Notes under the pieces: generated by a model | Seen by the model: only the letters and a program-made list of their open reading frames with translations | Databases searched by the model: none | What the model was told of the DNA's origin: nothing | NCBI RefSeq assembly: GCF_003664645.1 | Contig: NZ_RCHC01000005.1 | Coordinates: forward strand, 1-64,000 | Reading direction: 5' to 3' | DNA: 64,000 nucleotides | Source of the DNA: Acinetobacter chengduensis | GTDB taxonomy: Bacteria; Pseudomonadota; Gammaproteobacteria; Pseudomonadales; Moraxellaceae | Program-made: the position numbers and the translations under genes | Part shown: positions 55,350 to 60,403 of the stretch, piece by piece | Position numbering within the stretch: position 1 is the first letter of the stretch | Layout: every line of letters starts with the position of its first letter

Positions 55350-56987
<1,638 letters not shown>

Positions 56988-57009: not shown

Positions 57010-57039
57010 AAAAATCCCCGCTTCGGCGGGGATTTTTTT
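57010..57039 (+). terminator. Terminator of groESL
   Basis: AAAATCCCCGC/GCGGGGATTTT stem with TTCG tetraloop and T-run. Confidence 0.9.
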
Positions 57040-57218
57040 ATATTTTATATATATTTAAAAAAAACCAATGTAATATATGTCACACAATATGTCAGATATA
57101 AGACTTAAGCTTTATAAAAATGTTTTTTGTAGCACTATTAATAGATTTTTATAAACTTTTGCTTTAATATCAATCAATAAATGATTTATAACATATTTAA
57201 ATTAGTTTGGGGGTGTTT

Positions 57219-57380
57219 GTGTGTAAGGGTGATGAAGATCACGAGATGGTGATGGTAAGTACTCAAGAGCTTAAACGTTTATATGCAAAAATTCAGGAAT
57301 ATGAACGCATGTTTAGCTTGTTAAGCTGTGAAGAAATTCGCAGGCTGAAGGCGATGATGAGTAACTATAAAATCACTTAA
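57219..57380 (+). CDS. Small ORF of 53 codons, possible gene
   Basis: A 53-residue reading frame with a helical heptad-like pattern (TQELKRLYAKIQEYERMF, LLSCEEIRRLKAMM). A GGGGG run lies five bases before the GTG at 57219. Its stop overlaps the stop of the convergent XRE-like gene by four bases. Codon pattern and ribosome site favour a real gene, but there is no homolog I can name. Without homologs, it remains uncertain. Confidence 0.45.
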   Translation: MCKGDEDHEMVMVSTQELKRLYAKIQEYERMFSLLSCEEIRRLKAMMSNYKIT

Positions 57381-57760
57381 TTTTGAAATTCTTCAATGAT
57401 ATTTAAAATAAGCGTCTTTTGTGTTTCAGTTAACGCGTTAAATTTTAATAAAAAATCATAGTCCTTAGCACTTAATATCTCAGTATTTAAAGTGCTTTTA
57501 TCTGTTTGGGTATCGTTATCACCAAATCTAAGCCATTGATTTGACACATTAAGCCATAATGATAAGATTGAAAGCTTATCTTGATTGGGGATGGCTTTTG
57601 CAAGCAACCAATTGTTTGCTGACTGAACAGAAATGGGCTCACCAGAATAACGCGCATTGAATTGCTTAGAAATAAAAGTGGGACTGATCGGGTGATGCTC
57701 TTGCGTTAAAGCTTGTTTTAATCGTTCTGAGAACAATAACTTTTCTTTTTGACTACTCAT
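57377..57760 (-). CDS. XRE-like HTH regulator
   Basis: A 127-residue DNA-binding protein. The N-terminal helix-turn-helix region (about 8-65) includes FSERLKQALTQ, TFISKQFNARYSG and ISVQSANNWLLAKAIPNQDKL, a lambda-repressor/XRE-type pattern. The C-terminal part (about 90-127) ends DFLLKFNALTETQKTLILNI, likely for dimerisation. A TTGATTAATCAA palindrome lies about 68 bases upstream and may be its operator. It points away from the autotransporter-like gene, so it is the obvious candidate regulator of that gene. Confidence 0.8.
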   Translation of the reverse strand: MSSQKEKLLFSERLKQALTQEHHPISPTFISKQFNARYSGEPISVQSANNWLLAKAIPNQDKLSILSLWLNVSNQWLRFGDNDTQTDKSTLNTEILSAKDYDFLLKFNALTETQKTLILNIIEEFQN

Positions 57761-57827
57761 TGCTACTACGTATCAAATTTCAATTTTGGATTCTAAGTTA
57801 ATTGACAAATCTTAAAGCTAACTTAAT

Positions 57828-57839
57828 TTGATTAATCAA
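57828..57839. promoter_or_regulatory. Palindromic operator candidate near the XRE-like gene
   Basis: Perfect 12-bp palindrome TTGATTAATCAA, 68 bases upstream of the regulator start. Shares TTGATTAA with a second site near 58073. Confidence 0.45.
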
Positions 57840-58063
57840 TATTTGGTTTGTGCGGACTCGAGACTAACAACACGTCTTAATTATACTACATGATATCAGT
57901 TTTGATCACTGTAAGTATTTGTAGGGCTTATGAACTTTAAAGTTAGCATTTGAGCATAAGAAAGTTCATATTGCTTAATATCAATCATAATTTGAAAATT
58001 AATAATTTTAAGCTATTGTAATATATGAATTATTTAAGTTAACAATAAAATAATTGTAAAATA

Positions 58064-58078
58064 AATCAAATTTTGATT
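58064..58078. promoter_or_regulatory. Second inverted-repeat operator candidate
   Basis: 7-1-7 inverted repeat AATCAAA-T-TTTGATT, directly upstream of the putative -10 box TATTAT at 58101. Confidence 0.4.
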
Positions 58079-58132
58079 AATAATTAACTTTCTCTTTGGG
58101 TATTATCTCCACATCCACCAGAGGACTGGCTC

Positions 58133-58163
58133 AAAAAAGACACTTTATCTTGTCTTTTTTTTT
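58133..58163 (+). terminator. Leader terminator 1 of the autotransporter gene
   Basis: Perfect 10-bp stem AAAAAAGACA/TGTCTTTTTT with 8-base loop, then T-run; 65 bases before the gene it precedes. Confidence 0.7.
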
Positions 58164-58171
58164 AGGCTTTC

Positions 58172-58208
58172 ACTGGTTTGCATCATCCTAGGGCAAACCA
58201 GTCTTTTT
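58172..58208 (+). terminator. Leader terminator 2 of the autotransporter gene
   Basis: Perfect 10-bp stem ACTGGTTTGC/GCAAACCAGT (58172-58181 with 58193-58202) and a CTTTTT tail; ends 20 bases before the start codon. Confidence 0.65.
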
Positions 58209-58227
58209 ATAAAAATTGGAGAAATTC

Positions 58228-59955
58228 ATGAAGTTTCAAAAAACATTGCTAGCAGCTACTATGGCAATTATTGCATCACATACAGTAAATGCTGCAGATG
58301 TTACACTCAGCGACAGTACAGGTCCTTTAGGTTCATGGACCACAAATGATACTAAAGTAAACGTTGATGTGAAAAATGGCTTGGTTAATATTAACGCAGA
58401 GTTATCTGATATAAAAACAAATGGTTCAGCGACAATTTCTGAGGATTTATTAATCCCGACAATTGATAATTCTTTTAATGGTACGGGTGGTCAAACAGTA
58501 CTTGATTACAATTACTCGAGTTCAATTGCTGCTGATGAAGTTAAGCAAACTCAAAAAGTTACAGCTGATCTAATTCAGTTAACACAAAGTTCTTCATCTG
58601 GGAAATATACAACGAGTGAAGTTCGTCAATCTGAAGTGACTTATGATGCAAATGGTGAATATGTTGGTAGTTTAGCTCTGGGGCTAAAACCAAATACATC
58701 AGCAACTACTAAGTATGAGGCTAATAAAAATAATGGTACCCACACTATTAGTGTTGGTAAATTGGAAAAAAATGATGAACATTACTCATTCCAAGTTACT
58801 CAAAGTAAAGATAATGTAAATAAATCTACAACTATTACTGCAGGAAACATTGACCTAGGTAGCGGAACAAGCTCGCAAAAGGTTGCGACTGGTGATTGGA
58901 AGAAAGGTCAGGCTTATGCTATCTATGAAGTTACCCAAAATGGTAAAACATCAAAAGTTGAAACTTTTGATGGGAAATTGGCAGACGGTACTGCATTCAA
59001 TGTAGATAATCCAGATTATAGCCAAGTGACTTTAGTTTCAGTTGGTGCAGGTGGTACACAAGCTGTTACAGTTAGCCAGTCTGAAGTTGTTAAGAAAGTT
59101 ACAGATAGTAATGTCACTTATGGTGAAAAAACAACTCAGCAAAAGGGTACCAACGTAGTTGGTGATCTTTATGATGTAGATGCTGCAGGTAAGAAAATCG
59201 CAGGTACGGATAAAGCTTTAGATCAAACTTTTGTTGTAAGTGGTCAGGGTACTGTTGTTAATGAGCAGTCAGTTGTGACAGGTATTATTGGTCAAGATGC
59301 CGATAATAATAATGTTTATGGTGTTGTAGCTTCTAACATTACAACTGATGCAACTACAGGTACTAAAACAGAGCAAACGTCTGAATTGACTGGTAAAGGC
59401 TTAGTTGTAAGCAATGGTACCAATCAAACTAGTATTTCGGCAGATGGAATTTCTACAACTGGGGATTTAACTATTTTTGCGGGTTCTGATAAGGAAACCA
59501 CGGTTGGTAGTTTCGTACAAGCAACAACAGCTAAAGTAGAAACCCAAGTAAATGAAAAGCTAGCTTTAGTTGACACAAAAGTTGAAGCTATTGATACAAA
59601 AGTTGGCACTATTGATGCAAAAGTTGTTGAAGTGGATTCTCGTTTGACTGCTCAGGTTGGTCAATTGGGTGGTCGTGTTGATCAATTAAACAAACGTATT
59701 GATGACGTAGAGAAAACTTCTTACCGTGGTATTGCAATTGCATTAGCTGCTCAACAGCAAATTCCAAACATTGGTGCAGGTCAATTTGCAGTATTTGGTG
59801 GCGCTGGTCACTATGAAGGCGAATCTGCAGCTGCTTTAGGTGTTGCAAGCGTATTGGCTGATGGCCGTACTGCATTCAGTGCTGCTCTAGGTTTTGCTGG
59901 CGGTAATGAAGTTGGTGGCCGTGTAGGCGTATCTTATGTATTTGGTGGTAAATAA
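58228..59955 (+). CDS. Trimeric autotransporter-like adhesin with YadA anchor
   Basis: A 575-residue surface protein. Signal peptide ends near VNA (residue 22). The passenger is Thr/Ser/Asn-rich with repeated QSEVT/QSEVV and TVVNEQSVVTG-like strands but no canonical YadA head or Hia repeats that I can see. A coiled coil follows (KVETQVNEKLALVDTKVEAI, read to about residue 500) and the last 75 or so residues form the YadA-type beta-barrel anchor, including YRGIAIALAAQQQIP and VGVSYVFGGK. Such proteins trimerise through the anchor and bind host or surface. I use the ATG at 58228 (GGAG upstream). Confidence 0.85.
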   Translation: MKFQKTLLAATMAIIASHTVNAADVTLSDSTGPLGSWTTNDTKVNVDVKNGLVNINAELSDIKTNGSATISEDLLIPTIDNSFNGTGGQTVLDYNYSSSIAADEVKQTQKVTADLIQLTQSSSSGKYTTSEVRQSEVTYDANGEYVGSLALGLKPNTSATTKYEANKNNGTHTISVGKLEKNDEHYSFQVTQSKDNVNKSTTITAGNIDLGSGTSSQKVATGDWKKGQAYAIYEVTQNGKTSKVETFDGKLADGTAFNVDNPDYSQVTLVSVGAGGTQAVTVSQSEVVKKVTDSNVTYGEKTTQQKGTNVVGDLYDVDAAGKKIAGTDKALDQTFVVSGQGTVVNEQSVVTGIIGQDADNNNVYGVVASNITTDATTGTKTEQTSELTGKGLVVSNGTNQTSISADGISTTGDLTIFAGSDKETTVGSFVQATTAKVETQVNEKLALVDTKVEAIDTKVGTIDAKVVEVDSRLTAQVGQLGGRVDQLNKRIDDVEKTSYRGIAIALAAQQQIPNIGAGQFAVFGGAGHYEGESAAALGVASVLADGRTAFSAALGFAGGNEVGGRVGVSYVFGGK

Positions 59956-59982: not shown

Positions 59983-60011
59983 AAAAGATCCCCGCTTTGC
60001 GGGGATTTTTT
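59983..60011 (+). terminator. Terminator of the autotransporter gene
   Basis: ATCCCCGC/GCGGGGAT stem, TTT loop, T-run. Confidence 0.85.
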
Positions 60012-60403
60012 ATATTTCAAATTGAAGCATTTTTGAGTAATGAGAAGGCTATTCTGGATGCAGAGCTAAAAAATAATTTTAGAAAAATATTTATCTTGAG
60101 TTGAGGTCGCATCCCCAGTCTTTGCTCTACAGCAGATTAAGCCATAGTTGAGTTTAGTCATGTATTAAATACTGCTGACAGCATTAATTATTAAGTTTTT
60201 ATTTTATATAATATAAATTTTTATAATCTAAAAATCCTGCATTAGAGTTTAGCTAGATTAATTTAAACAATACAAAAAATTTAATAAATTATTTTTCAGA
60301 TTCAATTGCTTATTTTATCTAAAAACTAGTGCTGAAATAATAGACATATTTTATAAATATAAATGATTATAATTCGCATTAATTTCTTATCTGGTCATGT
60401 GAA
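60012..60403. other. Non-coding gap before the TonB receptor
   Basis: 392 AT-rich bases without a gene; a Fur-like site lies at its right end. Confidence 0.5.
60364..60378 (+). promoter_or_regulatory. Candidate Fur box upstream of the TonB receptor
   Basis: TGATTATAATTCGCA matches 11 of 14 defined positions of the 7-1-7 consensus TGATAATnATTATCA; it ends 25 bases before the GTG start. Consistent with iron-regulated siderophore uptake. Confidence 0.5.

Follow-up and report, generated by a model that had tools for sequence, protein, structure and literature searches.

A probable control cassette for a trimeric autotransporter adhesin, usually beside groEL, in Acinetobacter

Results

Gene content of the locus

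The window analysed here, a 64,000-nucleotide (nt) stretch (64 kb) of the Acinetobacter chengduensis genome (contig NZ_RCHC01000005.1, positions 1 to 64,000), contains a locus in which the gene for a predicted XRE-type regulator (57377-57760, minus strand, 127 residues) diverges from that of a predicted trimeric autotransporter adhesin (58228-59955, plus strand, 575 residues, likely start ATG 58228). A small open reading frame (ORF) at 57219-57380 (plus strand, 53 residues, GTG start) is convergent with the regulator gene, and the stops of the two overlap. On the plus strand the order is groEL, small ORF (+), XRE-type gene (-), intergenic region, adhesin gene (+) and TonB-dependent receptor gene. 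A previous reading of the letters alone (the sequence-only reading) had described an XRE-like regulator diverging from a surface adhesin, with palindromes before the regulator gene and the leader and hairpins within the leader. The coordinates of all of its elements were confirmed by reading and by ORF calls, and the divergent pair itself was borne out by a Cro/CI-type fold and a YadA anchor. Absent from that reading were two operator-like sites, O1 and O3, and the small gene, which was missed by the ORF list (minimum 60 residues) and may be the most interesting part of the locus.

The divergent neighbour of the regulator is assigned to the trimeric autotransporter adhesins by its C-terminal YadA anchor at residues 517-572 (PF03895, 36.7 bits against a cut-off of 22.7, expectation value (E) 4.6e-9). 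Its C-terminal part resembles AtaA chain 9vnj (9.5e-7) and chains of Hia; unlike these proteins, the window adhesin has only 575 residues. The N-terminus is signal-peptide-like, as judged by eye, and a 21-bp repeat inside the gene (59570-59626) is compatible with a coiled-coil stalk.

For the regulator, a Pfam search gave zero matches, and NCBIfam gave two weak ones (DicA at 28.5 bits against a cut-off of 101; RstR at E 0.04); no curated family model for XRE regulators scored the 127-residue protein above its own cut-off. Its PHROGs matches were repressors or regulators, with E from 1.4e-6 to 8.4e-5. An AlphaFold2 model built with 25 orthologues (mean confidence score, pLDDT, of 83) has five N-terminal helices, and Foldseek aligned it with the DNA-binding domains of P22 c2, 434 Cro, SinR and TP901-1 CI at root-mean-square deviations of 1.7-2.6 over 69-79 columns, with weak E-values (best of all 0.0024, none at or below 0.001). 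Since the model resembles Cro/CI-type DNA-binding domains and the repressor-family matches, though weak, agree, the protein is taken to be of XRE type on the basis of its modelled five-helix domain; the missing curated-model match would reflect the limited sensitivity of such models, not a departure from the fold. Elsewhere in the same genome there is a distant paralogue of the regulator (locus L150, G000:C67:79385-79756), and neither an adhesin anchor match nor a small-gene match was found in the 4 kb around it.

Distribution across the genus

Whole-genome profile searches of 175 Acinetobacter genomes identified close regulator orthologues (E at or below 1.3e-40) in 30, or about one in six. 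Regulator matches occurred in 34 genomes altogether; the other four (G069, G130, G031 and G170) have distant paralogues only and belong, in the counts given here, to the 145 genomes lacking a close orthologue. In 28 of the 30 genomes the regulator has a YadA-anchor adhesin as its neighbour, which in one of them (G091) is reduced to a remnant. All 27 regulator genomes also covered by the anchor search have anchor and regulator side by side on a single contig, and the 28th linked genome, G178, has regulator contig coordinates matching the Acinetobacter pecorum locus L079, which has the anchor. In G185 a divergent adhesin-like ORF lies beside the regulator and the anchor was not seen within the stretch examined, and the regulator locus of G174 stops at a contig edge. 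Regulator and groEL are no more than 1.5 kb apart in 21 of 27 loci. When 3-kb flanks were inspected groEL was seen in A. puyangensis and not in A. terrae or A. gerneri. Comparison thus establishes a conserved locus, as judged from gene neighbourhoods.

Among the named loci with regulator relatives, 17 of 22 are from Acinetobacter, and the loci from Moraxella, Oxalobacteraceae, Burkholderiales and Betaproteobacteria showed no adhesin match beside the regulator relative. One genome, G035, carries three such adhesin loci (L012, L014 and L005), each with an operator-like site, a hairpin-2 relative (see below) and a degraded U tract.

Operator-like sites and the adhesin promoter

The region upstream of the adhesins shares a motif, ATCAA-nnn-TTGAT, followed in most by TGATA. 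A profile was built from the adhesin-side sites of 23 relatives, excluding the window and also G091, whose adhesin is a remnant, G140, which has a variant site, and G154, in whose examined flank an adhesin ORF was not found, and was scanned over the 64 kb. The five top matches all fell inside this 1-kb locus, at four sites designated O1 to O4. The highest score (23.8) belongs to O4 (58063-58083, plus strand), which has the core ATCAAATTTTGAT at 58065-58077 and overlaps the predicted -35; the match at 58059-58079 (16.5) is the O4 palindrome on the other strand. The second-best site, O1 (57167-57187, minus strand, 19.6), lies 31 nt before the small ORF, and none of 100 shuffles of the region upstream of that ORF scored as high. 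O3 (57978-57998, minus strand, 16.1) is 85 bp upstream of O4, and O2 (57829-57849, minus strand, 13.3) is 69 nt from the regulator start. The next-best matches in the 64 kb scored 9.0 (58488-58508, within the adhesin gene) and 8.5. The two palindromes noted by the sequence-only reading, TTGATTAATCAA at 57828-57839 and AATCAAATTTTGATT at 58064-58078, thus lie under matches that rank among the best five in the window, the former overlapping O2.

An adhesin-side site scoring above 10 was present in all 25 loci scanned (G091 and G154 were left out). In the five genomes besides the window that have a site above this threshold near the regulator start, it lies 50-61 nt from that start, and second intergenic sites like O3 occur 106 bp (G012) and 72 bp (G147) upstream of the main site. 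For 27 loci together, the sum of the scores upstream of the small ORF was reached by none of 100 shuffles, and taken singly 7 of the 27 beat all 100 or equalled the best of them.

Thirty-five copies of the exact motif ATCAARTWTTGATTGAT were counted in 32 of the 175 genomes, against a single match for a reversed control pattern; the window's own adhesin-side site departs from the motif by one base. Of these copies, 25 belong to 23 of the 30 regulator genomes, every one between regulator and adhesin. The other 10 are in 9 of the 145 remaining genomes; 8 of them were inspected, and since none is near the adhesin, the regulator or groEL, they were judged to be chance or unrelated occurrences. On its own, the 8-mer TTGATTAA shows only mild enrichment in the window, with 12 occurrences against 6.6 expected (3 of 100 shuffles reach 12).

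The adhesin promoter is predicted at 58077-58106 (plus strand), with -35 TTAATA (58077-58082), an 18-nt spacer and -10 TATTAT (58101-58106). It had been noted previously that a palindrome stands beside this TATTAT. The placement held, with TATNAT invariant in all 16 aligned leaders; the promoter match alone (9 of 12 positions) is not above chance, with 14 such matches in the region and 14.9 expected from shuffles. In the relatives the end bases of the motif form the -35 (TTGATA in most loci), and a -10 of TATNAT or TAGAAT follows 17-18 nt further on. By hand count the spacing from motif start to -10 is near-constant at 35-36 nt, and the centre of the dyad falls at about -41/-42 from the predicted start. 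The operator-like motif is established by this comparison, and the adhesin-side palindrome is a conserved operator-like site over the -35.

A small gene found with the regulator

Relatives of the small gene are found at the corresponding position, where they too converge on the regulator gene and often overlap its stop. The ratio of nonsynonymous to synonymous substitution (dN/dS) was computed for 12 pairs. Five gave 0.11-0.28, with synonymous divergence (dS) above 1 in three of the five, and one gave 0.44; of the others, three are near-identical with 1-3 silent changes only and three are saturated. The informative pairs point to purifying selection, and comparison establishes the ORF as a coding gene on these grounds. 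A profile was built from the regulator neighbours and searched against whole genomes. It found the family in 29 of the 175 genomes, all of them among the 30 regulator genomes, and in none of the 145 without a close regulator orthologue. Two weak extra matches, sited elsewhere, were seen in G003 and G035 (E 0.001, with stops, and 0.003). Comparison of the small protein with family libraries and the PDB revealed no known family, only scattered weak matches of the coiled-coil kind, and its AlphaFold2 model is one long helix (residues 15-52).

Structure of the adhesin leader

The leader of the window adhesin folds better than all of 200 shuffles (z -3.3). Two terminator-like hairpins had been proposed in it, and both are present. 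Hairpin 1 (58133-58163, plus strand; arms 58133-58142 and 58151-58160, 10 of 10 positions complementary) is A/U-rich with a long U tail. No counterpart exists in any of the 15 other leaders of a 16-row alignment, from which one of two identical G035 leaders had been dropped; hairpin 1 was therefore set aside as a conserved terminator and regarded as specific to the window, the stem at that place in G012 being unrelated.

Hairpin 2 with its U tract (58172-58210, plus strand; arms 58172-58181 and 58193-58202, 10 of 10 complementary; P3 of the alignment) is conserved. The tract ends 17 nt upstream of the adhesin start codon. Across the 16 leaders 98.7% of cells are paired, 4 of the 10 pairs have changed on both sides, the pairing measures were reached by 0 or 1 of 500 shuffles, and sliding controls were far lower. 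A covariance model gave 18 matches in 16 of the 175 genomes, 17 of them before these adhesins (three in G035); the eighteenth (G107, E 0.005) is weak and looks unrelated on reading. A DNA-level dyad was considered as an alternative, but 25 of 150 cells are G-U pairs on the sense strand, which favours RNA. Comparison establishes hairpin 2 as a conserved, covarying RNA structure; nothing at the leader reaches the gathering score of any Rfam family. A stable stem followed by a U tract is the form of an intrinsic terminator. As a terminator-like element, hairpin 2 with its tail was equalled by none of 60 shuffles, and 15 of the 16 aligned leaders have a terminator-like score. The loop (58182-58192), which contains a self-complementary CCUAGG, is conserved though loops usually vary freely: 11 of the 16 leaders have exactly AUCCUAGGG, and two others differ from it by a single base. 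The loop might make a kissing contact or be bound by a factor. Upstream of homologous adhesins, the operator-like site and hairpin 2 are therefore conserved, unlike hairpin 1 and the antiterminator pairing considered below.

Discussion

A model for control of the adhesin

Taken together, these findings make it probable, as far as sequence comparison can tell, that the locus is a self-contained control cassette for the adhesin, usually located by groEL and consisting of an XRE switch, a small partner protein and a leader terminator. We infer that the XRE protein binds the repeated ATCAAnnnTTGAT-like dyads, one of which lies over the adhesin -35, with further dyads in the window before the regulator's own gene, before the small gene and in the intergenic region. 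It would set adhesin transcription via O4, helped by O1-O3, most likely as a repressor, and cooperative or looping contacts might join the sites. The small helical protein, with an operator-like site before its own gene in the window, would most likely be a dedicated partner of the regulator, acting as anti-repressor or co-regulator. Transcripts that had started would meet hairpin 2, predicted to act by termination, which would lower read-through or set the fate of the mRNA. The more specific version, a novel chromosomal on/off switch in which the small protein family is a dedicated anti-repressor, the shared operators provide feedback and the AUCCUAGGG-loop hairpin is a second, RNA-level gate, is put forward only tentatively and is rather doubtful as a whole.

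Several observations weigh against this model. Sites above 10 are few outside the adhesin side: of 25 loci, 7 have one before the small gene, 6 have one near the regulator start and 3 carry a match above 10 within coding sequence. The likeness of the sites from which the profile was built is in part a matter of descent, because they are homologous promoters; the extra sites are the independent part of the evidence. A dyad centred at -41/-42 could serve repression or activation, so that the repressor role is an assumption. G174 has the regulator, and the small gene was not detected there. G185 and G002 encode the same small protein, their genes differing by one silent change, and in G185 it stands beside a regulator of the distant type, which weakens a strict one-to-one partnership and suggests that elements of the cassette are probably exchanged by recombination. 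Leaders from the other clade likewise fail to support a general role for hairpin 2: 9 of 12 have no terminator-like hairpin and 3 have weak ones, no better than some shuffles, so the scheme does not depend on the leader hairpin. Finally, groEL was not seen within 1.5 kb in 6 of 27 regulator loci. In G185 (L146) the adhesin adjoins, and a transposase-like ORF lies between groEL and the small gene, an arrangement that looks like recombination of the cassette.

The regulator might instead be an activator that contacts RNA polymerase from about -41.5, leaving the adhesin off in its absence. Lambda CI activates at PRM by RNA polymerase contact. The near-constant spacing of motif and -10 places the dyad centre suitably, the window -35 TTAATA is weak, and overexpression of the XRE-type protein Trp1 of Bartonella raises badA expression (PMC5387305). 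Most aligned relatives, however, have a good promoter unaided (TTGATA and TATNAT at 17-18 nt), which argues for a need for shut-off, and activation is considered possible but somewhat unlikely.

With repression still preferred at the promoter, a similar degree of doubt attaches to the proposal that hairpin 2 is not a terminator and acts in the 5′ untranslated region on stability, or on translation near the ribosome site. G147 and G035 keep its pairs by compensatory changes despite a degraded U tract, as a stability hairpin would predict, but a run of at least five T directly follows the stem in 13 of the 16 leaders, as a terminator would.

Less likely still is that the leader acts as a riboswitch or attenuator, in which the upstream helices P1 and P2 respond to a signal and hairpin 2 is opened when AACCA, or GACTGG in the window, pairs with one of its arms. 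P1 corresponds to the CCAG-AGGA-CTGG mini-hairpin (58118-58129, plus strand) of the sequence-only reading. It is indeed present, but is supported only as a group (summed score 208 against 172 for the best of 200 shuffled sets), being within chance in the window itself, where 48 of 200 shuffles were equal or better. AACCA, a possible pairing partner for UGGUU in hairpin 2, stands at the same place in 10 of the 16 leaders, a subgroup aligned because they share it; the exactness of the AUCCUAGGG loop in 11 leaders also speaks for this reading. The proposed switch between GACTGG (58124-58129) and CCAGTC (58198-58203) is likewise complementary, and 9 of 300 shuffles of the window gave a pairing with the 3′ arm as good; such pairing was in the top 5% of shuffles for the window, G035 and G072 (3′ arm) and for G103 and G072 (5′ arm). 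Over the 16 leaders, however, alternative pairings were no better than shuffles (mean z 0.01 for the 5′ arm and -0.26 for the 3′ arm), so that a conserved, mutually exclusive antiterminator was not found among them. P1-P2 is strongly divergent, unlike a ligand pocket, P2 is weakly supported with no double changes in its pairs, and no Rfam family matches. A CsrA-type reading of the AGGA loop (58120-58123) was dropped, as G012 has AGGG there.

It is very improbable that the regulator and small gene are unrelated to the adhesin and linked to it only as one inherited chromosomal block by groEL, since the groEL synteny that suggests this (21 of 27 loci) is set against operator-like sites at scores found nowhere else in the 64 kb, an exact motif not found elsewhere in regulator genomes, and a small gene missing from all 145 genomes without a close regulator orthologue.

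Relation to known systems

Of the systems already described, the closest found is Brt1/Trp1/badA in Bartonella henselae, whose XRE-type protein increases expression of a trimeric adhesin and whose regulator gene follows a structured RNA (PMC5387305). Both systems combine a small XRE-type protein with a structured RNA that may contain a terminator, and both target a trimeric autotransporter adhesin. In Bartonella the RNA lies before the gene for the regulator, and a further action in trans has been proposed for it (PMC5387305), whereas no such RNA was found directly upstream of the XRE gene here, the conserved hairpin lying in the adhesin's own leader; the Acinetobacter cassette also has the small protein and repeated operator-like sites.

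Phage CI/Cro switches (P22 c2, 434 Cro, TP901-1 CI) resemble the cassette in their DNA-binding fold and in having several operator-like sites around divergent genes. The Acinetobacter locus, in contrast, is chromosomal, usually by groEL, and has an adhesin neighbour, and the likeness is one of fold and layout. In Bacillus subtilis, surface or biofilm genes are controlled by SinR, an XRE-type protein, together with SinI, a small helical protein that binds and inactivates it. SinR is among the fold matches of the regulator, and in both cases an XRE-type protein adjoins a small helical one; here, unlike in SinR/SinI, the genes are convergent, the small protein shows no relation to a known family, and the partnership is read from co-occurrence and helix prediction.

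A search of titles and abstract openings found no description of this Acinetobacter locus and no account of such a control cassette for Acinetobacter adhesins or of the way in which adhesins of this kind are regulated in the genus. The locus supplies a dedicated regulator, a likely operator sequence, a conserved leader hairpin and a new small protein family found only with the regulator; if the small protein is indeed an anti-repressor, it would constitute a compact adhesion switch.

Other features of the region

groEL, named from its sequence, lies at 55353-56987. An unexplained perfect 10-nt inverted repeat, TATGAACTTT/AAAGTTCATA, is present in the intergenic region at 57929-57938 and 57961-57970. 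Terminator-like hairpins occur 3′ of groEL (57010-57037) and 3′ of the adhesin gene (59988-60012), the latter strong and followed by a T run.

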